Below, one piece after another: positions 3,035-16,997 of a stretch of DNA of 52,405 bases. The DNA is from Phycisphaerae bacterium (GTDB lineage Bacteria; Planctomycetota; Phycisphaerae; Sedimentisphaerales; Anaerohalosphaeraceae). Position numbers and translations under genes: made by a program. The notes under the pieces were generated by a model. The model saw nothing but the letters and a program-made list of their open reading frames with translations, ran no database searches and was not told the DNA's origin. The first letter of the stretch is position 1, and each line of letters begins with the position of its first letter. The stretch is from contig JADHXS010000002.1 in NCBI GenBank assembly GCA_016782835.1, positions 1 through 52,405 of the forward strand, read 5' to 3'.

Positions 3035-3715
3035 CTATCTCCGGCGGTATTTATAAGACCGAGTACAAAGTCCCCCCAGTCCCAACAGAATAAGCGTTAC
3101 CGGTTCAGGTACGATAAGTGACTCACTGACATTGGAGTCGCCGTATTCAATCGAAATCACGTGCAGCCCGACCCGCAGACTGCCATTGCCGATGGCCGTG
3201 TTGATATCGGCGTAGGTTGAGCCGTTCAGGTCGAACAGCAGCCCCAGGGATTCGCCCGGATTGAGCCCCAGTGTGGGTGCCGGGTTATCGGCGCCGGCAT
3301 AGAAGTCATATTTGGTAAAGCCGTACGAAGTTCCACCGGGCATCTTGGCGGTGCCTTTATCCAGGAATTCAATGGTGCCGGTCTGCAGCCCGATGAAAGA
3401 ATCGAACGAAATAAGCGTGTCATCGATGTAAACCGCCGCGATGGAACTGTCCAGCGGGGCCGATGTCATGGGCGGAATCGTGTTGTTGTTGACAAACTCC
3501 AGCAACACCTGTGTGTCGGAGTAGTACTGCACATCCACCGTAAACTGCCAGGGGTCGATCGCCAGTCCCGGCCCGTTATTGGTTACTTTGGTTAGTGAAT
3601 ACAAACCTGCCTGCGAGATACCGCAAAGACAGGAAACCATCAAAAGGCACAGGAAACCCCTATTTCCCTTGCCGTGCCCTTCAAACGGAACCCGGGGGTT
3701 GCGTCTGTTTCTCAT
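3035..3715 (-). CDS. PEP-CTERM sorting-domain protein
   Basis: 226 residues from the ATG at 3715, chosen because AAGGGAGA lies about 7 bp upstream and a signal peptide follows (hydrophobic GFLCLLMVSCLCGISQA, about residues 20-36). The body is a beta-rich extracellular domain of unknown function (about 40-200). The C-terminus carries PEP, then a hydrophobic stretch (VTLILLGLGGL) and a basic end (YKYRRR), the signal for exosortase processing and surface or exopolysaccharide association. No exosortase gene is in the window. A longer frame upstream exists but lacks a ribosome site and would bury the signal peptide. Confidence 0.85.
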   Translation of the reverse strand: MRNRRNPRVPFEGHGKGNRGFLCLLMVSCLCGISQAGLYSLTKVTNNGPGLAIDPWQFTVDVQYYSDTQVLLEFVNNNTIPPMTSAPLDSSIAAVYIDDTLISFDSFIGLQTGTIEFLDKGTAKMPGGTSYGFTKYDFYAGADNPAPTLGLNPGESLGLLFDLNGSTYADINTAIGNGSLRVGLHVISIEYGDSNVSESLIVPEPVTLILLGLGGLCTRSYKYRRR

Positions 3716-4165
3716 TTTTTTCTCCCTTTTCAAGACCCATCCTGTATTGTTGTGAAGATCCCGAACGATCTTCGTGTCCACTGAAACAATTGTCATTGGC
3801 AATACGCGCAGACTTGGGGCATGAAATGACCGTGTTTGATGCAAAATCAGGTATTCATGGTCCAAAGAGCGCTATCTTCCCTCGCTCACTCTCCGGTTGT
3901 GTGTGCGCAAAGAGCCTCACACACAATGATTTCTTTCCTGACTCTCTCCAGATATGCCACTTTCGAATGCTTTTACATTACCTTCCTCGTCCCCCTAAGT
4001 ATGTAAATATGATAGCAGGAGGCGGTAGAAATGTCAAGAAAAAACCTGATAAAAACTTGAAATAGCCCATTAAGAGGCGATTTTTCTGTGGAAAAAACGA
4101 AATATTTTTAGTTGTGACTGGAGGGAGAGATGCCGGTTTTACAACGCCATACCGTTTTCCGGTGC
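3716..4165. other. 450-bp intergenic region with a long-stem hairpin
   Basis: No convincing gene. The clearest structure is a perfect 9-bp inverted repeat TTGTGTGTG/CACACACAA at 3897-3926 with a 12-nt loop. It lies about 180 bp upstream of the PEP-CTERM start and would be in its 5' leader if transcription begins further up. There is no T-run, so it does not look like a simple terminator. An operator or leader structure is possible. Confidence 0.35.
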
Positions 4166-4582
4166 CTACTGGCAATTGGTTTGGGCTGCATCGAACAATC
4201 CCAATTCGCGAATCTGTTCGAGCAATTTTTCCCGTGAGAAAGGTTTTGTGATGTACGCTTCGCAACCGGCATTGTAGGCCGACATCATATCTTTTGCCAT
4301 GTCTTTGGCTGTAATCATAATTACCTTGACACTGGGCAAGCTCTCCTCGGTGTTTCTGAATTCCATCCGGCGGATCTTTTGCAATGCCTCCATCCCGTCC
4401 ATTTCCGGCATCATGATGTCCATACAAATCAGGTCATACGGTTGATCTGCTGCAATGGCCCGCTCGACGGTTTCAAGTGCTTCAGCGCCATTGTCGGCTG
4501 TATCACAAGTGCCGTAATCAGCCAGGTATAATTGCATCAACTCCTGTAGCGAGCTTTCATCTTCAACGATTAGTATTTTCAT
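4166..4582 (-). CDS. Stand-alone response regulator (CheY-like receiver)
   Basis: 138 residues from the ATG at 4582 (a TTG one codon upstream is also open). This is a single receiver domain with the acidic pocket (VEDE, residues 7-10), the phospho-acceptor Asp55 in CMDIMMPEMDG, Thr91 in MITA and Lys113 in TKPF. There is no output domain, so it signals by protein contact or phosphotransfer, as CheY and Spo0F do. No kinase is adjacent; the nearest in the window is the five-PAS kinase 9 kb away, and a link between them would be guesswork. Confidence 0.9.
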   Translation of the reverse strand: MKILIVEDESSLQELMQLYLADYGTCDTADNGAEALETVERAIAADQPYDLICMDIMMPEMDGMEALQKIRRMEFRNTEESLPSVKVIMITAKDMAKDMMSAYNAGCEAYITKPFSREKLLEQIRELGLFDAAQTNCQ

Positions 4583-4743: not shown

Positions 4744-5406
4744 TCAGTGCCGGCTGGTTTCTCTCAGACAGTCACGAAGGGTGACGGGGCCGCGATTGAG
4801 GTCGGCTTCGGTGAATAATTTGGCCCGAAAGGTGTCGACGTTAGCAAAGATTTTTTCGGTGTGCTGTTCGATGCGGCTCCACTGACCGGTGAGCTTCCAT
4901 TGGCGGATTCGCATGCGGCTGTAGGTTGTGTGGGTGACAACTTCCCATACCCCGCCGTAGCTGTGCTGATACAGTGTACGTTGCTGTTCGGCGGTTTTGT
5001 CATAGACCGCCTGGGTGTAGGTTTTATGAAACGGCCACAGCAGCACCGGCACAAACCAGCCCACCGGCCCGCGGTCGTTGTCATCCTTGCTGACGCATTG
5101 GATATACGTATGCGGCTCCGGCACGCCGGATGGTTTTTGGTTTCCATTGTCGGGTGCCATGCCCACATGAGTGTGGGCATGCTTTGTGTTTAGTTGCTGC
5201 GCATAGTCATAGATAGCTTTCAAACTCGGTTGCCGGGGTTCGTTGCGGACATGATGCCGCCGTGTCGCGGCGCTCAGTGTCGCCTCGTCAAAGTCCTTCA
5301 ACCGCCAGTACCAGTCGCTCAACTGCACTGCCGTAAACTCATACCTCGGCCACTGTTGCCGAATCTGACTTTGAAACCACTTTCCAAACGCCTCTTTAGT
5401 TAACAT
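4744..5406 (-). CDS. Phage-type helicase-loader-like replication protein
   Basis: 220 residues. The ATG at 5406 follows AGAAAGGAG at 8-bp spacing, the same ribosome site used by the other minus-strand genes up to 12.8 kb. The N-terminal ~75 residues are helical (LTKEAFGKWF, then LSDWYWRLKDFDEATLSAA, then PSLKAIYDYA). This pattern recalls the phage G39P/DnaI-type loader N-domain, in which a Trp-rich helix and a 'PSL..I' segment recur. The remaining ~145 residues (WFVPVLLWPFHKTY, MRIRQWKLTG) are not recognised. A palindromic repeat lies inside the frame at 5158-5181. The family call is tentative; the phage flavour is supported by the neighbours. Confidence 0.4.
   Translation of the reverse strand: MLTKEAFGKWFQSQIRQQWPRYEFTAVQLSDWYWRLKDFDEATLSAATRRHHVRNEPRQPSLKAIYDYAQQLNTKHAHTHVGMAPDNGNQKPSGVPEPHTYIQCVSKDDNDRGPVGWFVPVLLWPFHKTYTQAVYDKTAEQQRTLYQHSYGGVWEVVTHTTYSRMRIRQWKLTGQWSRIEQHTEKIFANVDTFRAKLFTEADLNRGPVTLRDCLRETSRH
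5158..5181. repeat. In-frame palindromic repeat inside the loader-like gene
   Basis: Perfect 10-bp inverted repeat CATGCCCACA/TGTGGGCATG with a TGAG loop. A close relative (CATGCCCAC/GTGGGCATG followed by GCACCCG) occurs in intergenic DNA at 9480-9504, and on the minus strand this copy is also followed by GCACCCG. The host frame reads through it as KHAHTHVGMAP. Confidence 0.75.
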
Positions 5407-5537
5407 ACGATAAGCTCCTTTCTTGGGGATTTCTCCTAAAAGCACATCAAAAAACGAATATGCGGAATCACCGATGGATACGTAAATTGTTTTTCTATTG
5501 AGAGTTACGAAATTAATATGTGTGGAATTACTAATTT

Positions 5538-5639: not shown

Positions 5640-6983
5640 ATGAGAATGCCCAAGACGCCACCGGATTTTAGCCAGATCTGGAATCAAATGAAGCTATATG
5701 ACAATCCGGATAAACTTGAGCGGTTAATCCAGATACAATCGAGTTTATCCCAGTCTGTGAAATATTTGCACTGGGATAAGTTGCGCCATCTGACGCCCCC
5801 CGAATCAATGACTCATGAAGAGTGGTGGCTGGCGATCAAAATGAAACGGCAGAGTTTATATAAGCAAATTCCACTTCATGATAAAAACGGAAAGCCGTTT
5901 GTCATGCTCACCGAGGTTGACCCGATTCTTGAACGGTTGCATGATATCGATTTGGGTGCGGGTGGTTTAATTCAGATGCCCGATCAAATTACCAATCCTG
6001 ATACAAAAGATCAGTATTATATCAGTTCACTCATTCAGGAAGCGATTACCTCCAGCCAGTTGGAAGGGGCCGCAACGACTCGACCGGACGCCAAGGAGAT
6101 GATCAAGAGCGGTCGAAAACCAACGGATCGCAGCGAGCAAATGATCCTCAACAACTATCACACCATGCAGTTCATCAATACGTTGAAAGATACAGACTTG
6201 TCGAAGAGTCTTGTTTTTGAGATTCATCGACGGGTAACACATGATACGCTGGATGATTCAACCGCCGCCGGTCGTTTTCGAAAGCCTGACGAATCCGTTT
6301 CTGTGGTGGATCAATATAACGAAGTCATGCATACACCACCACCTGCGGATTCATTAGATAAGCGTCTGGACTTGTTGTGTAAATTTGCGAACAGGCAATT
6401 AAAAACTGGCTACATTCATCCGGCGGTCCGTTCGATCATTCTGCATTTTTGGCTGGCCTACGATCATCCGTTTATCGATGGCAACGGCAGAACAGCGCGT
6501 GCATTGTTTTATTGGTCGATGCTGCGGCATAAATACTGGCTGTTTGAGTTTGTCTCTATCTCACAAATCATCTTAAACGCTCCGGCCAAATATGAACGAG
6601 CCTTTTTGTATACGGAAACAGATGAGAACGATCTAACGTATTTTATCCTGTATCATCTGGATGTAATTCATAAAGCGGTTGAAAAACTCCATGAGTATAT
6701 CCAGCAAAAGACACAACGATTGCAGTCGTTGGAACGAGATATCAAGGGGTTGGCCGGGTTAAATCATCGACAGCGAATGCTAATCAGTCATGCATTGAGA
6801 CACCAGTTTTATAAATATACCTTCAAGTCACACCAGACAAGCCATGGGATTGTGTACCAAACAGCCCGGCTGGATTTGATGGACCTTGAGAACAAGGGCT
6901 TGCTTACCAGTCGCAAAGTCGGACGCACTTGGTATTTTACCCCAGCTAAAAATCTCGAAGAAAAACTCGCAAAGTTGGCTTAA
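5640..6983 (+). CDS. Fic/DOC family protein adenylyltransferase, class II, with C-terminal HTH
   Basis: 447 residues; the ATG follows GGGGAG at 7 bp. The catalytic motif HPFIDGNGRTAR starts at His276, matching HxFx(D/E)GNGRxxR of enzymes that transfer AMP to protein hydroxyls. An N-terminal inhibitory helix motif S/TxxxE(G/N) is present as S138-SQL-E142-G143, which makes it a class II Fic with the inhibitor in the same chain. The last ~80 residues (YQTARLDLMDLENKGLLTSR) look like a winged helix that could bind the operators upstream. It runs opposite to the phage-like genes on both sides, as cargo would. The target is unknown. Confidence 0.92.
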   Translation: MRMPKTPPDFSQIWNQMKLYDNPDKLERLIQIQSSLSQSVKYLHWDKLRHLTPPESMTHEEWWLAIKMKRQSLYKQIPLHDKNGKPFVMLTEVDPILERLHDIDLGAGGLIQMPDQITNPDTKDQYYISSLIQEAITSSQLEGAATTRPDAKEMIKSGRKPTDRSEQMILNNYHTMQFINTLKDTDLSKSLVFEIHRRVTHDTLDDSTAAGRFRKPDESVSVVDQYNEVMHTPPPADSLDKRLDLLCKFANRQLKTGYIHPAVRSIILHFWLAYDHPFIDGNGRTARALFYWSMLRHKYWLFEFVSISQIILNAPAKYERAFLYTETDENDLTYFILYHLDVIHKAVEKLHEYIQQKTQRLQSLERDIKGLAGLNHRQRMLISHALRHQFYKYTFKSHQTSHGIVYQTARLDLMDLENKGLLTSRKVGRTWYFTPAKNLEEKLAKLA

Positions 6984-9527: not shown

Positions 9528-10181
9528 TTAAAACGCATCTTTGCCGAGGTAGTTTTTGGCGATGCGGCACAGGGCTAGCAGGCGTTTTTCGGTACGGCTG
9601 CCAGACTCGTTTTCCTTGACGGCTTTTTCAAATGCCTCGCTAATTAGCCGGTGCTGCGGTTCGGTGACGAAAAATGTCATCGGCAGCAGAAACGGCTTTT
9701 GACTTTTCGGTTTCGGCAGCGGCTGTTGCTTGGCAAGACAATCCAGTTTTTCGATAGCGGTCTTGCTCTCCGGCAGCATCTGCGACAATTCCTTGCTCTC
9801 ATAGCGTTTGCAGAGCTGTTCGATGAGCCTGCTTTTTTTGTGCACGTTATCCCGTCCGGTCAGTTTGTTCAGCGTCGCCAGGTACACCATTGCCTCTGCG
9901 TCGGCGGCGGCAAACACCACGCAGTCGGCGTGGGTATAGCTTAGCCGGGCCAGTGCCCGCATGCGATGATGACCGTTAAGGATTTGATAGCTGTTCTTTC
10001 GATGCGGGTGGATTCGCACGACGATGGGTTCATACTGGCCGGTGCGTTCAATGTGTTTGACGAGTTTTTTAAACGCTGCATCGCTCATGCGATTTGGATT
10101 GGCCGGGTGCGGTGACAGACGACGCAGCGACAGCGATACAACCGTTTGCGTGGGAGTTGATTGTGTGGTTTGTGTGGACAT
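9528..10181 (-). CDS. ParB/Sulfiredoxin-fold nuclease-like protein (phage type)
   Basis: 217 residues; the ATG at 10181 has AAAGGAG at 7 bp. The N-terminal ~110 residues form a ParB N-domain: LSLRRLSPHPANPNRMSD, then HIERTGQYEPIVVR, then NGHHRMRALARL, where the GHHR box replaces the ERR box of chromosomal ParB. KLTGRDNVHKKSRLIEQL begins a helical region like the linker of phage ParB-like proteins. No canonical ParB DNA-binding HTH is obvious and no ParA is nearby, so chromosome partition is unlikely. Such stand-alone proteins occur in phages and integrative elements as CTP-dependent clamps or nucleases. It lies 167 bp downstream of the GNAT gene on the same strand. Confidence 0.8.
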   Translation of the reverse strand: MSTQTTQSTPTQTVVSLSLRRLSPHPANPNRMSDAAFKKLVKHIERTGQYEPIVVRIHPHRKNSYQILNGHHRMRALARLSYTHADCVVFAAADAEAMVYLATLNKLTGRDNVHKKSRLIEQLCKRYESKELSQMLPESKTAIEKLDCLAKQQPLPKPKSQKPFLLPMTFFVTEPQHRLISEAFEKAVKENESGSRTEKRLLALCRIAKNYLGKDAF

Positions 10182-10243
10182 AATAAAGCTCCTTTCTTTT
10201 CAGTGAACAGTTAGCAATAAACAGTAAACAATAATGAACGACG

Positions 10244-10331
10244 GTCATTCCGACAGTCACATCATCCTGAACAAAGTGAAGGATATCACCTTTACGTTAT
10301 GGTTGAGATTCTTCCTAAAGCTCAGAATGAC
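10244..10331. repeat. 88-bp repeat with GTCATTC/GAATGAC ends
   Basis: Seven-bp terminal inverted repeats GTCATTC (10244-10250) and GAATGAC (10325-10331) bound an AT-balanced segment. It carries an inner palindrome ATCCT...AGGAT (10264-10284) and the words CAAAGTGAAGGATATCACC and GAGATTCTTC. This composition resembles a family of short dispersed elements found between genes of many environmental bacteria. It sits between the GNAT and ParB-like genes. Confidence 0.55.
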
Positions 10332-10347
10332 TGAATCAGGTTTGTGG

Positions 10348-11109
10348 TTATGCAATCTCCAGGCCGGGGACGGGTTTTTCGGGATTGAGCCAGAGGTAGT
10401 AATGACCGGGCGGGCCGAGTTTGCTCAGGACGAAGTCCGTTCGTTCGAGGGTGTGGAGCAAATTACGCTGGCTTTGGAATTTCTGCAGGAAATCCTGTAT
10501 CTGTTTTTCGATAAACCCGCGATGTGGCGTATCCAATGACTCGATCTGCTCATGCACCCGGTCGGTGTCGATCCACAGGGTCCGGTCAATGCCGACGGTT
10601 TCCAGTGCCGCCTGCATCCGTTCGGTCTTGACATCCGGCGGTTGACGAAATCGGCACATCCCAGCCCGTTCGAAGAACGGGTGCACCATCCCCATAACGC
10701 TGGATGTTTCGACCATTGCCGCACCCGTCAGCGGCATGGTTTCTTTGACCAACCGGCTTGCCAACCCCAGCCCGCGATACCGCGGGTCGATAATAACCCG
10801 GCTGATACACCGGACGTGCTCGTTTAAGAGTGAAAGCCCAACAGCCCGGCTCAGCCCGGAGAAGAAACCGCCGGTGACGATGTTGCGAATGGCTAGATTC
10901 GGTACGGGCGGACGATAGACGATCACGCCCACCACCGGGGCCATGATCCTGCGTCGGCTGTGGTCATCATAAATGGCAAACAGGTGCGTAAAGGGGCCCA
11001 AGGCCGTGCTGCGATAGTGAAAGCTCGCCAGGCTTTTGTAGGCGTCGAGGTCGGCAGAGCGAATAATCAGGTGTTTTTGGATGCTGCAATCGGTAATATT
11101 ACGGTACAC
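10348..11109 (-). CDS. GNAT acetyltransferase-like protein (COG2401-type N-terminal half)
   Basis: 253 residues. The start is GTG at 11109, behind AAGGAG at 6 bp. The GNAT core spans about residues 10-160. Motif A is SRVIIDPRYRGLGLASRLV, with the acetyl-CoA pyrophosphate loop R110-x-x-G113-x-G115. It is followed by MVETSSVMGMVHPFFERAGM, a signature I associate with the acetyltransferase half of COG2401 proteins, in which GNAT and ABC ATPase are fused. The C-terminal ~90 residues are helical and unassigned. Here the ATPase half is a separate gene 550 bp upstream on the same strand. The related phage enzyme Mom also has a GNAT fold, so DNA modification is one possibility; the substrate is unknown. 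Confidence 0.75.
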   Translation of the reverse strand: MYRNITDCSIQKHLIIRSADLDAYKSLASFHYRSTALGPFTHLFAIYDDHSRRRIMAPVVGVIVYRPPVPNLAIRNIVTGGFFSGLSRAVGLSLLNEHVRCISRVIIDPRYRGLGLASRLVKETMPLTGAAMVETSSVMGMVHPFFERAGMCRFRQPPDVKTERMQAALETVGIDRTLWIDTDRVHEQIESLDTPHRGFIEKQIQDFLQKFQSQRNLLHTLERTDFVLSKLGPPGHYYLWLNPEKPVPGLEIA

Positions 11110-11297
11110 AGTATTCTCCTTATGCAAAAAAGTTGTAAATAGAATTTGTTAATAACATTTCACGGCAAAATTTATAGGATGTTGTTTGGTGGGGATATTT
11201 AAAAATGTTCTTAAAAAAACAAAAGTTATTGGGTATTATTACCGATAAGAGCGTATGGCAACAAGAACGGATCAAGTTATTTGGGAGCTTCTCAGGA

Positions 11298-11612
11298 ATG
11301 ACTGAAACGGACAAAAAAGAGAATTCATCAGGGCAGCGGTGTCCCTATTTTAAGACCTGCGAATTTATTCAGTCCCAAGAGGACAAGCTGCCCCGTCTTA
11401 CAAATCAGTTCAAAGAAAATTATTGCCTCAAAAACTATTATGCCTGTTCCCGGCGATGGATACAGGACTTTCTTGGAGCTGAAAAAGTACCCGAACTGAT
11501 GATGCCGCAACAGCATGACTGGGCCGAGCAATTGCTTTTCGAGTCAGGTGTCAGATATACCGCGTTTCAACAAAAGTATCGCTCGTCCCGCCCCGACACC
11601 GATAGCAAGTAA
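11298..11612 (+). CDS. Small Cys-rich protein, conserved family of unknown function
   Basis: 104 residues from the ATG at 11298 (GGGAG about 11 bp upstream); an in-frame ATG at 11205 would add 31 residues. The N-terminal half holds CPYFKTCEF and YCLKNYYACSRRW, a C-x5-C...C-x6-C pattern suited to a metal or Fe-S cluster. I have met this pattern in short bacterial proteins beginning CP[FY].. and ending YC....CAR. The C-terminal part (PQQHDWAEQLL) is soluble. It points opposite to the GNAT and ABC genes and separates them, so it looks like inserted cargo. The function is unknown. Confidence 0.6.
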   Translation: MTETDKKENSSGQRCPYFKTCEFIQSQEDKLPRLTNQFKENYCLKNYYACSRRWIQDFLGAEKVPELMMPQQHDWAEQLLFESGVRYTAFQQKYRSSRPDTDSK

Positions 11613-11659
11613 AAAAAGCGTTATGAACTTGTCAATGAACGGTCATCAGTTATCAATTA

Positions 11660-12316
11660 TCAGGTTCTGCTTTGTGATTTATCCTTGTAGATTGTCCGTG
11701 TTGTCCCGTTCAAATATTTGATAACAATCACATCCGGCTGTAGTTCAACCAGCATATCTTCATGGCAGGATGCAAGGATAAAAATTTTCCCGGTTTGCAC
11801 AGCGAGTTTGCGAAGATTATGCGCGATGACGCAAGCAGTAATGCGATCCAGCGATGCGGTGAACTCATCGGCAAAAATCCATCGCCTGCCGCTCATGATG
11901 GCCTTTGCCAAACGATATCGCCATTGCTGGCCCGCACTAAGCACTGCGGGACTGTTCAGCATGGAAAACACATCGCTGAGTCCTGCCTTGCTGAGCATTC
12001 CCGTTGCGTTCCATAGCGAGCCGTCAACACAATCGATGAGAGCGGCATTGTGCTCGAGTGGGATATCCTCAAGACGAATTCGCTCGGAGGGGCGGATTTG
12101 TTCATACAGGGCATTCAGCAGCACGCTTTTGCCGGCGCCGCTGGATCCGGTGATAAAACAAATCTGTCCCGGCTTAAGTGTTAACCGGCAGGTATGGCGC
12201 AGACGCTGATCTTTGAGGCGATTCAGTCTCAATCCGAACAGACGCATCAATTTTGCGGCGCGGTCTGATATCGTTTGGTTCCATTGAATTGATGTATTAA
12301 CATTTAACGTGTGCAC
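11660..12316 (-). CDS. ABC-type ATPase (COG2401-type C-terminal half), no membrane domain
   Basis: 218 residues. The start is GTG at 12316, 6 bp behind GAAAGGAG; it lies 20 bp inside the end of the upstream regulator gene, so the two are coupled. Complete ATPase motifs: Walker A GSSGAGKS (57-64), signature LSAGQ (126-130), Walker B RRWIFADEF (D150, E151), D-loop SLD, and the switch His185 in SCHED. The spacing between signature and Walker B and the words LAKAIMSGRRW and LDRITACVIAHNLRKLA are typical of the ATPase half of COG2401 rather than of a transporter. No permease is nearby. It may power a DNA- or protein-remodelling step with the GNAT and ParB-like proteins (inference). Confidence 0.85.
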   Translation of the reverse strand: MHTLNVNTSIQWNQTISDRAAKLMRLFGLRLNRLKDQRLRHTCRLTLKPGQICFITGSSGAGKSVLLNALYEQIRPSERIRLEDIPLEHNAALIDCVDGSLWNATGMLSKAGLSDVFSMLNSPAVLSAGQQWRYRLAKAIMSGRRWIFADEFTASLDRITACVIAHNLRKLAVQTGKIFILASCHEDMLVELQPDVIVIKYLNGTTRTIYKDKSQSRT

Positions 12317-12809
12317 AGAGATCTCCTTTCTTATATGAGTTGTATTTTCGATTTCGTTTATTTCTCCCTTGCATCTCTGGAGGTTCTCGAACCCGGCAGG
12401 GCTGGAGTGTACTGCTGCCGTAAGCAATTAACCGCACCGCCCGGAGGATGTTACGGACGCGGTAGAGGCTAATGTTGAGTTTTTGGGCGATGGCTTTTTG
12501 AGTCAGCCCCTGAAGAAAATAGTCCTGAACGATGCGGATGTCTGTGTCGTCAATATCACACTGACGGCGCAGCAGTGATACCAGTTCTTTGGCGATAAGT
12601 TTTTGCAGGAGACGATGAAAACGCCGGCTGATGGTCGAGGGATTCTGCCCGGTCAGACAGGCAATCTGCTCAAACGTGCTGCCTTTCTCGAAAATCATCT
12701 GCATCAACGCCTTGTCTTTGGAACTGAGCCATTCGCTGCGAAGACGGATTTTCTCGATTTCCTGTATGCGCTGGCGGTACAGCGCGTTATTGCGGTGCCA
12801 AGAGAACAT
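12297..12809 (-). CDS. Double helix-turn-helix regulator (sigma region 4-like)
   Basis: 170 residues; the ATG at 12809 has GAAAGGAG at 8 bp. Two HTH units are visible. One at about 44-66 (STFEQIACLTGQNPSTISRR) resembles sigma-70 region 4. The other, at about 100-126 (QGLTQKAIAQKLNISLYRVR), resembles transposase or LuxR-type HTHs. The tail is basic (RGRNKRNRKYNSYKKGD). It is the first gene of the minus-strand module and overlaps the ATPase gene by 20 bp, so it probably controls the module. The A/T palindromes in the gap upstream are candidate sites. Confidence 0.7.
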   Translation of the reverse strand: MFSWHRNNALYRQRIQEIEKIRLRSEWLSSKDKALMQMIFEKGSTFEQIACLTGQNPSTISRRFHRLLQKLIAKELVSLLRRQCDIDDTDIRIVQDYFLQGLTQKAIAQKLNISLYRVRNILRAVRLIAYGSSTLQPCRVREPPEMQGRNKRNRKYNSYKKGDLCAHVKC

Positions 12810-13694: not shown

Positions 13695-16600
13695 ATGGGC
13701 ATAGATTTAGGTGAAGTTCGGCCGTATCAACAACACGTTTTCCGGTGGTGTTGGGTTGCAGTGTTTTTATCAGTGTTTTTCGTTTGTTGGAATGCCAATG
13801 CCGATGAGCAGAAGGTCGTTGAGGCGGATGCAGTCCAAGCGGGTGCGGATTCTATTCCGGCGGCGGAGTCAAATAATGAATCGTTGTCTTCGGCAGGGGC
13901 GTTTCTGAGTGAGGCTCAGCAGAATTGGCTTCGTCAGAATATTCCTGTCCGTGTTGGGGTCACCAACATTCCGCCCCAGGTTTTCAGAGATGAACAAACC
14001 GGCCAATTGAGCGGACTCTGCATGGATCATCTGCGACGAATTGAGACGCTTTTAGGTGTGCCGTTTGAGATTGTTTACTACAATACGTGGAATGCCATGA
14101 TGGACGCGACTTTGCTGCAAATTTCACCGGAACAACGTCAAAGACTGGAGGCGAAGTGGGTCTTTCCGAAGATGGAGGCGAAAACGCTGGATTGGCGCAT
14201 TGTGTACGGTGTTCCGATTGGAATCGCCATGCTTCTGGCTTCGGTGTTGTTATGGAATGTCTTATTAAGGCGATCGGTCAAATCTCGGATATTTGAATTA
14301 CAGCAGGAGTTAACGGAACGAAAGAAAGCCGAAGCATCCCTGGTCGAAAGTGAGCGTAAGCTTTCGATGCTCATGGATAATCTGCAGGGGATTGTATTTC
14401 GCCGTTTAAACCGCGCGGACTGGCCGATGGAATTTCTCGGCAAGGGGTGTCTGGAACTGACCGGCTATCCTGTTCAGGAATTTCTTTCACGCCCAATGGC
14501 ATGGAATGATCTGATTATGGCCGAGGACCGAACGCCCGTCTGGGAGAATATTCAAGAGGCCTTGCGGAGTCGACAGACGTATCAGATTGAATATCGTATC
14601 ATCACCCATGACGGACAACTCAAATGGCTCTGGGAAAAGGGCAGTGGTGTGTTCGACGCGAACGGAAATATCGTGGCGTTGGAGGGATTTATTTCAGATA
14701 TTTCTCATAGCAAGAATATCGAGGAAAAACTGTGCCGTCAGGAGACTCAACTGGCGAGTATTTTCAAGGCCTCTCCGGTCGGGATCGGCTTGCTATCCAA
14801 CCGGGTATTTTTGCATGTCAATGACCGGGTTTGTGCCATGACCGGATACACGCAGGAAGAATTGGTCGGCCGGGATGCCCGGATACTTTATCCGAGCCAG
14901 GAAGAGTATGAATATGTGGGCCGGGAAAAATATCGCCAAATCAAAGAAGAGGGTGTCGGTACGGTTGAGACCCGGTGGCGTTGCAAGGACAGCAAAACGA
15001 TAGATGTTTTGCTGAGTTCGGCTGCAATTGATGTGCATAATTTGGGTAAGGGGGTCATCTTTAACGCGCTTGATATTACCGAGGCCAAGACTGCCACACA
15101 GATGGCGATTACTGAGCGGGACAAAGCTCAGCAGTACCTGGACATTGCCGGGGTGATGATGGTGGTGCTGGATGCCGAAGGTCGTATCAAACTGTTAAAT
15201 AAGAGGGGCTGTGAGATTCTGGAATGCACCGAGAGCCATGTCCGGGGCAAAGACTGGTTTTCCGGTTTTCTGCCGGAATCGGCGAGAAAAACTACGCAAA
15301 AAGCATTCTGTGATTTGATTGTCGGACAGGGTGATAACGTTGAATATTTCGAGAATTCCGTGATTACAACGACAGGGAAAGAAAAACTGATTGCCTGGCA
15401 CAATACGGTGATTCGAGACGAGAAAGGCACGATTATCGGAACCTTGAGTTCAGGTTTGGATATTACAAAACAAAAGATTGCCGAACAGGCGCTGGCCGAA
15501 TCCGAACAACGTTTCCGTAATATCATCGAATCATCACCAATAGGTGTGGGTACATACACGCTGGAACCGGACGGACGTTTGATTCTGACCGGAGCCAATG
15601 AGGCCGCCGAAACCATTCTCAAAAGAGATCTTTCCGCTGTGCTGGGAAAAACGATTGAAGAGGCCTTCCCCGAACTGGTCGGAACGGACAGGCCCCGGAT
15701 TTACCGGGAGATTTGCGAACACGGCGGGGCCTATCATTGCAATAACTTTGACTATCCCGAGGAGCATCGGGGGGCAGGTGGATATCATGAAATTCATGTC
15801 TTCCAGACCTCTCCGGGTAAAATTGCCGTAATGTTTATGGATATGACCAATCGTATTCGGACGCAACATCAACTGGAGTTAACCCAGTTTGCGGTGGACC
15901 ATGCGGGCGAGGCGGTCTTTTGGCTGGGTCTGGATGCAAAATTTAAATATGTTAATGAAACCGCATGTCGGGTATTGAAATACAGCCGGGAAGAATTATT
16001 AACCATGTCGGTCCAGGATATCGATCCGGACTTTCCAGCCGATATCTGGCCGCGGCATTGGCAGGAGGTCAAAGAAAAGAAAACGGTGCGTTTTGAATCG
16101 CATCACAAAACCAAGGACGGCCATATATTTCCTGTGGAGATAACCGCTAACTTCCTTGAATATGAAGGCAGAGAGTATATGTGGTCCTTTGTTTGTGACA
16201 TCAGCGAACGGAAGGCTGCCGAAACAGCCCAGCAAAAGCTGATGAGCGAGCTTCAGTCCAAAAACGAGGAACTGGAAAGCATTGTTTTTATTGCCTCCCA
16301 TGATCTTCGCAGTCCGCTGGTGAATATCCGCGGATTTACCGGCGAGCTGGAAAAGAGCCTGGCCCAGCTTCAAAACCTGCTTGCAAACGAGAAACTCGGT
16401 GAATCGGCCCGGCAACAACTGGAATACATATTCGGCAACGATATACCCGAATCCATCGGTTTTATTAATGCCGGAAATCGCAAAATGGATATGCTGCTCA
16501 ACGGGTTGCTTAGATTGAGTCGCGTTGGGACATCCCATGTTTATCCAACCGTTCTGGACATGAATCAATTGCTCGAAGGGATTATCAATAGTTTCCGTTT

Positions 16601-16997
16601 CAGAATACGACAAACGGATATTGAAATTACTATTGATGCAGAGATTCCGGCCTGCCTGGGCGATGCTGTTTTAATTAACCAGGTTTTTAATAATTTGGTC
16701 GATAATGCGATTAAATACCGCTCGCCGGACCGGCCCGCAAACATTCATATCAGCGCTGAGGCAAAAGACCGTACGGTGGTTTACTGTGTCAAAGATAACG
16801 GTATCGGCATTGCGCCTGAACACATTGACAAAATCTTCGAAATATTTCATCGTCTTAATCCTGACAGCAGCCAGACAGGGGAAGGACTGGGACTTACCAT
16901 TGTTCGACGGTTGTTAATACGTCAGGACGGACGGGTCTGGATTGACTCAAAGCCCGGCGTAGGCACTTTGGTCTATGTCGAGCTTCCCAAAGCTTAA
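13695..16997 (+). CDS. Membrane-bound five-PAS sensor histidine kinase with collapsed periplasmic domain
   Basis: 1100 residues. Order: signal/TM1 (~17-36); a periplasmic remnant (~75-160); TM2 (~168-190); a short coiled coil; five PAS domains (~216-340, 345-470, 475-590, 600-720, 725-840); a dimerisation helix with the phospho-accepting His869 in SHDLRSPL; and a HATPase domain with N box NLVDNAIKY, G1 DNGIGIAP and G2 GEGLGLTIV. The periplasmic part has only the first strand of a SBP_bac_3 domain (IPVRVGVTNIPPQVF) joined directly to its last helix (ISPEQRQRLEAKW), so most of the ligand-binding fold is missing. There is no receiver domain and no adjacent regulator. Confidence 0.93.
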   Translation: MGIDLGEVRPYQQHVFRWCWVAVFLSVFFVCWNANADEQKVVEADAVQAGADSIPAAESNNESLSSAGAFLSEAQQNWLRQNIPVRVGVTNIPPQVFRDEQTGQLSGLCMDHLRRIETLLGVPFEIVYYNTWNAMMDATLLQISPEQRQRLEAKWVFPKMEAKTLDWRIVYGVPIGIAMLLASVLLWNVLLRRSVKSRIFELQQELTERKKAEASLVESERKLSMLMDNLQGIVFRRLNRADWPMEFLGKGCLELTGYPVQEFLSRPMAWNDLIMAEDRTPVWENIQEALRSRQTYQIEYRIITHDGQLKWLWEKGSGVFDANGNIVALEGFISDISHSKNIEEKLCRQETQLASIFKASPVGIGLLSNRVFLHVNDRVCAMTGYTQEELVGRDARILYPSQEEYEYVGREKYRQIKEEGVGTVETRWRCKDSKTIDVLLSSAAIDVHNLGKGVIFNALDITEAKTATQMAITERDKAQQYLDIAGVMMVVLDAEGRIKLLNKRGCEILECTESHVRGKDWFSGFLPESARKTTQKAFCDLIVGQGDNVEYFENSVITTTGKEKLIAWHNTVIRDEKGTIIGTLSSGLDITKQKIAEQALAESEQRFRNIIESSPIGVGTYTLEPDGRLILTGANEAAETILKRDLSAVLGKTIEEAFPELVGTDRPRIYREICEHGGAYHCNNFDYPEEHRGAGGYHEIHVFQTSPGKIAVMFMDMTNRIRTQHQLELTQFAVDHAGEAVFWLGLDAKFKYVNETACRVLKYSREELLTMSVQDIDPDFPADIWPRHWQEVKEKKTVRFESHHKTKDGHIFPVEITANFLEYEGREYMWSFVCDISERKAAETAQQKLMSELQSKNEELESIVFIASHDLRSPLVNIRGFTGELEKSLAQLQNLLANEKLGESARQQLEYIFGNDIPESIGFINAGNRKMDMLLNGLLRLSRVGTSHVYPTVLDMNQLLEGIINSFRFRIRQTDIEITIDAEIPACLGDAVLINQVFNNLVDNAIKYRSPDRPANIHISAEAKDRTVVYCVKDNGIGIAPEHIDKIFEIFHRLNPDSSQTGEGLGLTIVRRLLIRQDGRVWIDSKPGVGTLVYVELPKA

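Follow-up and report, generated by a model that had tools for sequence, protein, structure and literature searches.

The gene transfer agent (GTA) of Rhodobacter capsulatus, RcGTA, is made of phage-derived packaging genes that are single-copy, vertically inherited and held in several chromosomal loci. The evolution of TerL has been treated in the RcGTA context (PMC7947584). A second described system concerns DNA chemistry: the prediction that a GNAT enzyme paired with an ABC ATPase acylates a base in DNA dates from 2013 (Iyer et al., NAR gkt573, as cited in PMC7824862), and the latter, a jumbo-phage paper, restates it for Tenacibaculum phage pT24. Here we describe four genes from a 52,405-nucleotide stretch of a Phycisphaerae genome (order Sedimentisphaerales; contig JADHXS010000002.1 of assembly GCA_016782835.1), the whole of which we call the window. 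They encode, in order on the minus strand, a double helix-turn-helix (HTH) protein, a soluble ABC ATPase, a GNAT and a ParB_N protein. The genes almost certainly form the upstream half of a phage-derived chromosomal packaging operon which, with a separate head locus, most likely makes up a GTA or an equivalent, a reading of the sequences to which we give a probability of roughly 0.58.

A packaging operon in the class Phycisphaerae

An earlier note, made from the letters of the window, took the four genes for a candidate undescribed DNA-handling system. Their positions, family matches and conserved motifs are borne out, but the ABC-GNAT-ParB trio does not stand by itself: it belongs to the front part of a terminase operon that the whole class has retained. 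We surveyed 98 relatives at the order level, 57 of them high-quality genomes, and 247 Phycisphaerae genomes at the class level, 244 genomes of the class being of high quality. Most of Sedimentisphaerales shows this gene order again, so the arrangement is not due to chance. GNAT was found in 72 of the 98 relatives and in 50 of the 57 high-quality genomes, mostly as one copy each, and its named matches lie in Sedimentisphaerales and other Phycisphaerae. Clustering of the neighbourhoods gave HTH-ABC-GNAT-ParB followed by TerS (phrog_2538) and TerL (phrog_2, Terminase_6C); TerL, with few stops and nearly always single-copy, is present in 51 of the 57. This terminase context is invisible in the window because TerL of the same genome, which is intact, lies on another contig (C93).

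The HTH-ABC-GNAT-ParB-TerS-TerL operon extends to other Phycisphaerae families (L225, L226, L230, L232), and in L227 the order is HTH, a fused ABC-GNAT, then TerL. Among the 247 genomes GNAT was found in 176, TerL in 151 (129 strong) and the capsid in 115; for the 244 of high quality the figures are 174, 149 and, for the major capsid protein, 114, mostly as single copies. Capsid-positive genomes carry TerL in 97% of cases and GNAT in 94%. Class-wide, the probability of finding GNAT is 0.93 with TerL and 0.47 without it (Fisher p ~5e-16, for genomes that are not independent), and GNAT is rarer in the rest of the phylum. DUF1376 primosome-like genes lie inside the operon of some relatives, and no integrase was noticed near the loci.

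A second locus, close to the operon or far from it, holds a portal-scaffold-capsid-m3 cluster. The capsid (PF17236 SU10_MCP, 1e-84; phrog_1328, 6e-79) is present in 44 and the portal (PF05133, SPP1-type, 1e-18; phrog_64) in 47 of the 57 high-quality genomes of the order. In several closed genomes TerL and capsid are 0.17-0.98 Mb apart (positions 2.16 and 3.14 Mb in G041, 2.08 and 2.77 Mb in G046, 0.10 and 0.27 Mb in G015), and in closed G050 only ~10 kb separates them. About half of the genomes have a further conserved block after the capsid, and several genera lack it there. A conserved 600-residue protein of this block, m7 (L134:6908-8746; G095:C16, G087, G083 and others), found no counterpart in PHROGs, Pfam or among PDB sequences and is a candidate tail or baseplate protein.

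Pairwise comparison of 20 genomes, drawn from several Sedimentisphaerales families, gave median identities of 71% for the capsid, 72% for rpoB, 56% for the portal, 54% for TerL and 38-42% for the trio, and the identities of GNAT, ABC and ParB followed those of capsid and portal (Spearman 0.85-0.89). Normalised Robinson-Foulds distances (nRF) of the gene trees from rpoB were 0.47-0.69, against 0.98 for a permuted-tree null. Estimates of dN/dS, with dS often saturated, were 0.05-0.30 and point to purifying selection on all genes tested. Domestication is supported by prevalence, dispersal and co-evolution combined. Operon structure, class-wide range, mostly single copies, dispersed loci, purifying selection and coherent evolution of trio and capsid can all be read from the genomes. 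The operon appears almost certain to be of phage origin, and it has very probably been kept for a function in its host class, most likely in largely vertical descent. That the whole is a GTA we consider rather likely.

As in RcGTA and its relatives, the packaging genes are mostly single-copy, largely vertically inherited and held in several loci, and phage-type packaging and head genes occur in most members of the clade. The capsid (SU10_MCP PF17236) and portal (PF05133) families differ from those of RcGTA; the HTH-ABC-GNAT-ParB arm is an addition, and the Phycisphaerae system is known here from its genes. The probable Phycisphaerae GTA is probably of separate origin from RcGTA.

The trio in phages and its predicted chemistry

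Homologues of the ABC protein are found in 86 phage records, and its gene occurs in 895 plasmid records, many of them with an annotated ParB gene beside it. ParB, ABC and GNAT genes lie 5′ of the terminase in unrelated phages of Rhizobium (X66), Stenotrophomonas (BUCTxx99), Gordonia (NHagos), Lactococcus (P335, where ParB is unannotated), Streptococcus (MismyG), Pasteurella (Pmp13) and Leptospira (LE4), with a few small genes at most in between in these seven; in SSU5 and Nican01 the trio stands at the end of the deposited record. SSU5-type phage-plasmids and the other trio phages have the same genes as the Phycisphaerae operon, mostly 5′ of the terminase, but they are complete phages, whereas Phycisphaerae have kept only the packaging and head genes, in scattered loci, plus in about half of the genomes the extra post-capsid block, which has no family matches. 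A search of viral contigs with the window GNAT alone found nothing. Viral TerL relatives on IMG/VR contigs L201-L213 have ATPase and nuclease halves that match 1-4 kb apart, on many contigs with the nuclease half first (e.g. L204 7249-7722 and 9974-10870), and a split terminase appears to be recurrent among them.

To the earlier note, GNAT and ABC looked like the two halves of the COG2401 fusion family; they are indeed the halves of an ABC-GNAT fusion family. ABC and GNAT are one protein in phages of Gordonia, Porphyromonas, Pasteurella and Leptospira, and fused orthologues exist within the same class of bacteria. The window GNAT aligns over its full length with phage GNATs (hhalign 99.3%, 235 columns) and matches the fusions at a profile probability of 99.9%; a Klebsiella phage homologue bears a COG2401 title. 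No paper on COG2401 itself was found in the literature searched. Phage pT24 encodes a homologue (37%, 3e-41) of one phage fusion of the family, and the window pair belongs to this family as a GNAT and a soluble ABC ATPase of the same subfamilies, which may be fused or adjacent. The trio, whose co-occurrence had been proposed as a test, recurs in other genomes and phages. The claim of novelty does not hold for the enzyme pair, whose base acylation had been predicted in 2013, as cited in PMC7824862. The Phycisphaerae version shares its two domains with that predicted system and differs from it in being coupled to ParB, HTH, TerS and TerL, in lying on the chromosome and in being kept class-wide. 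The new part is this context, a class-wide chromosomal packaging operon, and not the GNAT-ABC module.

A formyltransferase-like gene comes next after ABC-GNAT in Gordonia, Porphyromonas and Komp_PAO1 phages, which suggests that the modification uses a formyl donor or yields a formyl product. Genes matching PF00551 or annotated as formyltransferase-like are at L005 1826-2473, L006 7092-7565 and L245 5113-5730. In two Porphyromonas prophages with 94-96% identity between the tail proteins next door, one and the same place is taken by ABC-GNAT with a formyltransferase in the first and by Mom in the second, an exchange that suggests equal roles; ParB-fold neighbours of Mom, adjacent in Antuna and one small gene away in Zartrosa, point the same way. 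The Mom of phage Mu (adenine momylation) is, like the predicted role here, a DNA-modifying enzyme of the GNAT superfamily, and it works without an ABC partner, unlike the window GNAT. The likeness to Mom that the earlier note drew is one of fold; as a sequence relative Mom was rejected, with hhalign probabilities of 0.3-5% and no profile similarity. TmcA and NAT10 (a GNAT plus a different ATPase, for RNA cytidine acetylation) are among the fold matches at low TM-scores, and we keep them only as an analogy for the GNAT-ATPase pairing.

The proteins themselves (Table 1) fit these assignments. The AlphaFold model of the GNAT has a confident GNAT fold (pLDDT 92.6), its best PDB matches being GNATs; among solved structures the nearest in fold are generic acetyltransferases that act on small molecules and proteins. 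Key motifs are kept across 14-20 relatives (ABC Walker A GxSGxGK, signature LSxGQ and DEF...LD; GNAT PRxRGLGLA; ParB NGHhR) and, with the signs of selection, they suggest functional genes, in line with the earlier view of a probably active module. The nearest solved chain to the ParB protein is Noc; of a ParB-type clamp the 217-residue protein has the N domain alone, with no Pfam match to HTH_ParB, the central parS-binding domain. The strong ribosome sites reported for all four genes (AAAGGAG-type) are found 5′ of HTH, ParB and ABC, whereas the first GNAT start codon, TTG 11127, has no clear one in front. The longest ABC open reading frame (ORF) reaches TTG 12427; the ribosome site places its start downstream (Table 1). 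The double-HTH protein is a candidate late-gene regulator, and its L112 homologue has a weak Phage_antitermQ match below the cut-off.

Table 1. Operon-related features of the window
Feature	Coordinates	Strand	Evidence
ParB/Srx N-domain protein	9528..10181	-	Pfam ParB_N PF02195, 4.8e-8; NGHHR box
Predicted GNAT-fold acyltransferase, extra C-terminal helical domain at ~residues 166-250	10348..11127	-	Pfam Acetyltransf_1, 2.4e-4 (over cut-off)
Soluble ABC ATPase	11660..12316	-	Pfam ABC_tran, 8e-15; start GTG 12316 behind AAGAAAGGAG
Double-HTH (sigma70 region-4-like) protein, first operon gene	12297..12809	-	Pfam Sigma70_r4, two stretches, 7e-13
233-aa ORF, family c29	4744..5445	-	Family lies 3′ of ParB, within the operon, in L043 and L095

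In the mechanism we propose, the HTH protein would switch the packaging operon on, GNAT and ABC would acylate a DNA base while ATP serves to change the shape of the DNA or of the active site, and the ParB-fold protein would guide or regulate the modification on DNA; TerS-TerL would then pump the DNA into an SU10-type capsid. Nucleobase acylation has, in our estimate, an even chance of being the job of GNAT-ABC. The complete picture, an ancient class-wide GTA of independent origin that marks DNA by ABC-driven, ParB-guided acylation before packaging and thereby labels or protects it in the cell that receives it, is tentative and less likely than not.

Weighing the alternatives

Several observations weigh against a GTA. 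It is read from genes, and particles, DNA transfer and base modification are predictions from them. No tail protein was recognised by sequence in PHROGs, Pfam or PDB sequences, and m7 is found in only 43 of the 98 relatives. Families f9 and f19 have a fused ABC-GNAT gene on its own among housekeeping genes and lack TerL and capsid, so the enzyme is also useful outside packaging. Congruence with rpoB is partial, not all splits being common, and since two viral contigs without recognisable GTA genes encode capsid proteins 64-69% identical, high capsid identity is not by itself proof of inheritance through the host. The genome that holds the window has an interrupted capsid gene, with residues 1-324 encoded 11 kb away from residues 318-381, and the packaging machine may be dead there. 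The two pieces are at L136 (G000:C103) 3495-4463 and 15342-15533, the second in frame with a 651-residue ORF; the split may reflect an insertion, a rearrangement or an assembly artefact. As m7 was also not found in this genome, loss of the system may be under way in the genus of the window.

Ordinary prophage remnants from repeated integration, with a prevalence that owes nothing to domestication, would account for the phage-type nature of all parts, for the related capsids and trios in real phages, for the interrupted capsid and for the partial agreement with rpoB. We consider this quite improbable, given mostly single copies in most genomes of the order, loci split up to 1 Mb apart, operon flanks (PAS kinase, FHA gene) common to different genera, intact frames with dN/dS well below 1 and the lack of a noticed integrase nearby. 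Improbable too is a use of the packaging genes without transfer, e.g. to store or release DNA or to defend the cell by means of a DNA-filled capsid that has no tail: terminase, portal and capsid are indeed kept more widely than the downstream, possibly tail, genes, which several genera lack beside the capsid, but about half of the relatives have the conserved post-capsid block, as expected of a tail, and tail genes may have diverged or moved. It is possible but doubtful that GNAT-ABC-ParB modifies a protein (terminase, capsid or nucleoid protein) as a switch of assembly or transcription. The acetyltransferases closest in fold, the stand-alone ABC-GNAT genes and the lack of sequence similarity to Mom would suit such a role; the Mom exchange at one locus in sibling Porphyromonas phages, the ParB-fold partner, the formyltransferase partner in several phages and the published prediction of base acylation speak for DNA.

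Flanking genes and significance

The 233-residue ORF of Table 1 is probably a displaced operon gene: its family lies between ParB and TerS in relatives, which bears in part on the decayed replication genes that the earlier note placed nearby. Between GNAT and ABC, on the opposite strand, is a small Cys-containing protein (11205-11612, +; CPYFKTC...) with homologues at the equivalent place in L035, L039, L079 and L111. A Fic/DOC-family protein is encoded at 5640-6983 (+), with homologues near the operon also in L070, L072, L074 and L085. A PAS-type sensor histidine kinase (13695-16997, +) adjoins the HTH end, and kinases related to it lie beside the operon in L035, L037, L041, L079, L092, L111 and L112; they are evidence for a conserved operon position and perhaps have a regulatory role. 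The window as a whole was rejected as a prophage, its right half holding type IV pilus, ObgE and metabolic genes. A known defence system was likewise rejected, the PADLOC matches being a generic ATPase, methylase and regulator alone.

We found no report of a class-wide GTA in Planctomycetota in the literature searched. If the GTA reading is true, genes would be exchanged in this abundant environmental phylum by a new route that evolved independently. The system would also be, as far as we know, the first GTA in Planctomycetota and, if it modifies DNA as proposed, the first to have a DNA-modification arm. The predicted GNAT-ABC DNA-modification enzymes gain a strong functional context, DNA packaging, and the trio phages P335 and NHagos, which have laboratory hosts, are places where the predicted chemistry is directly testable.

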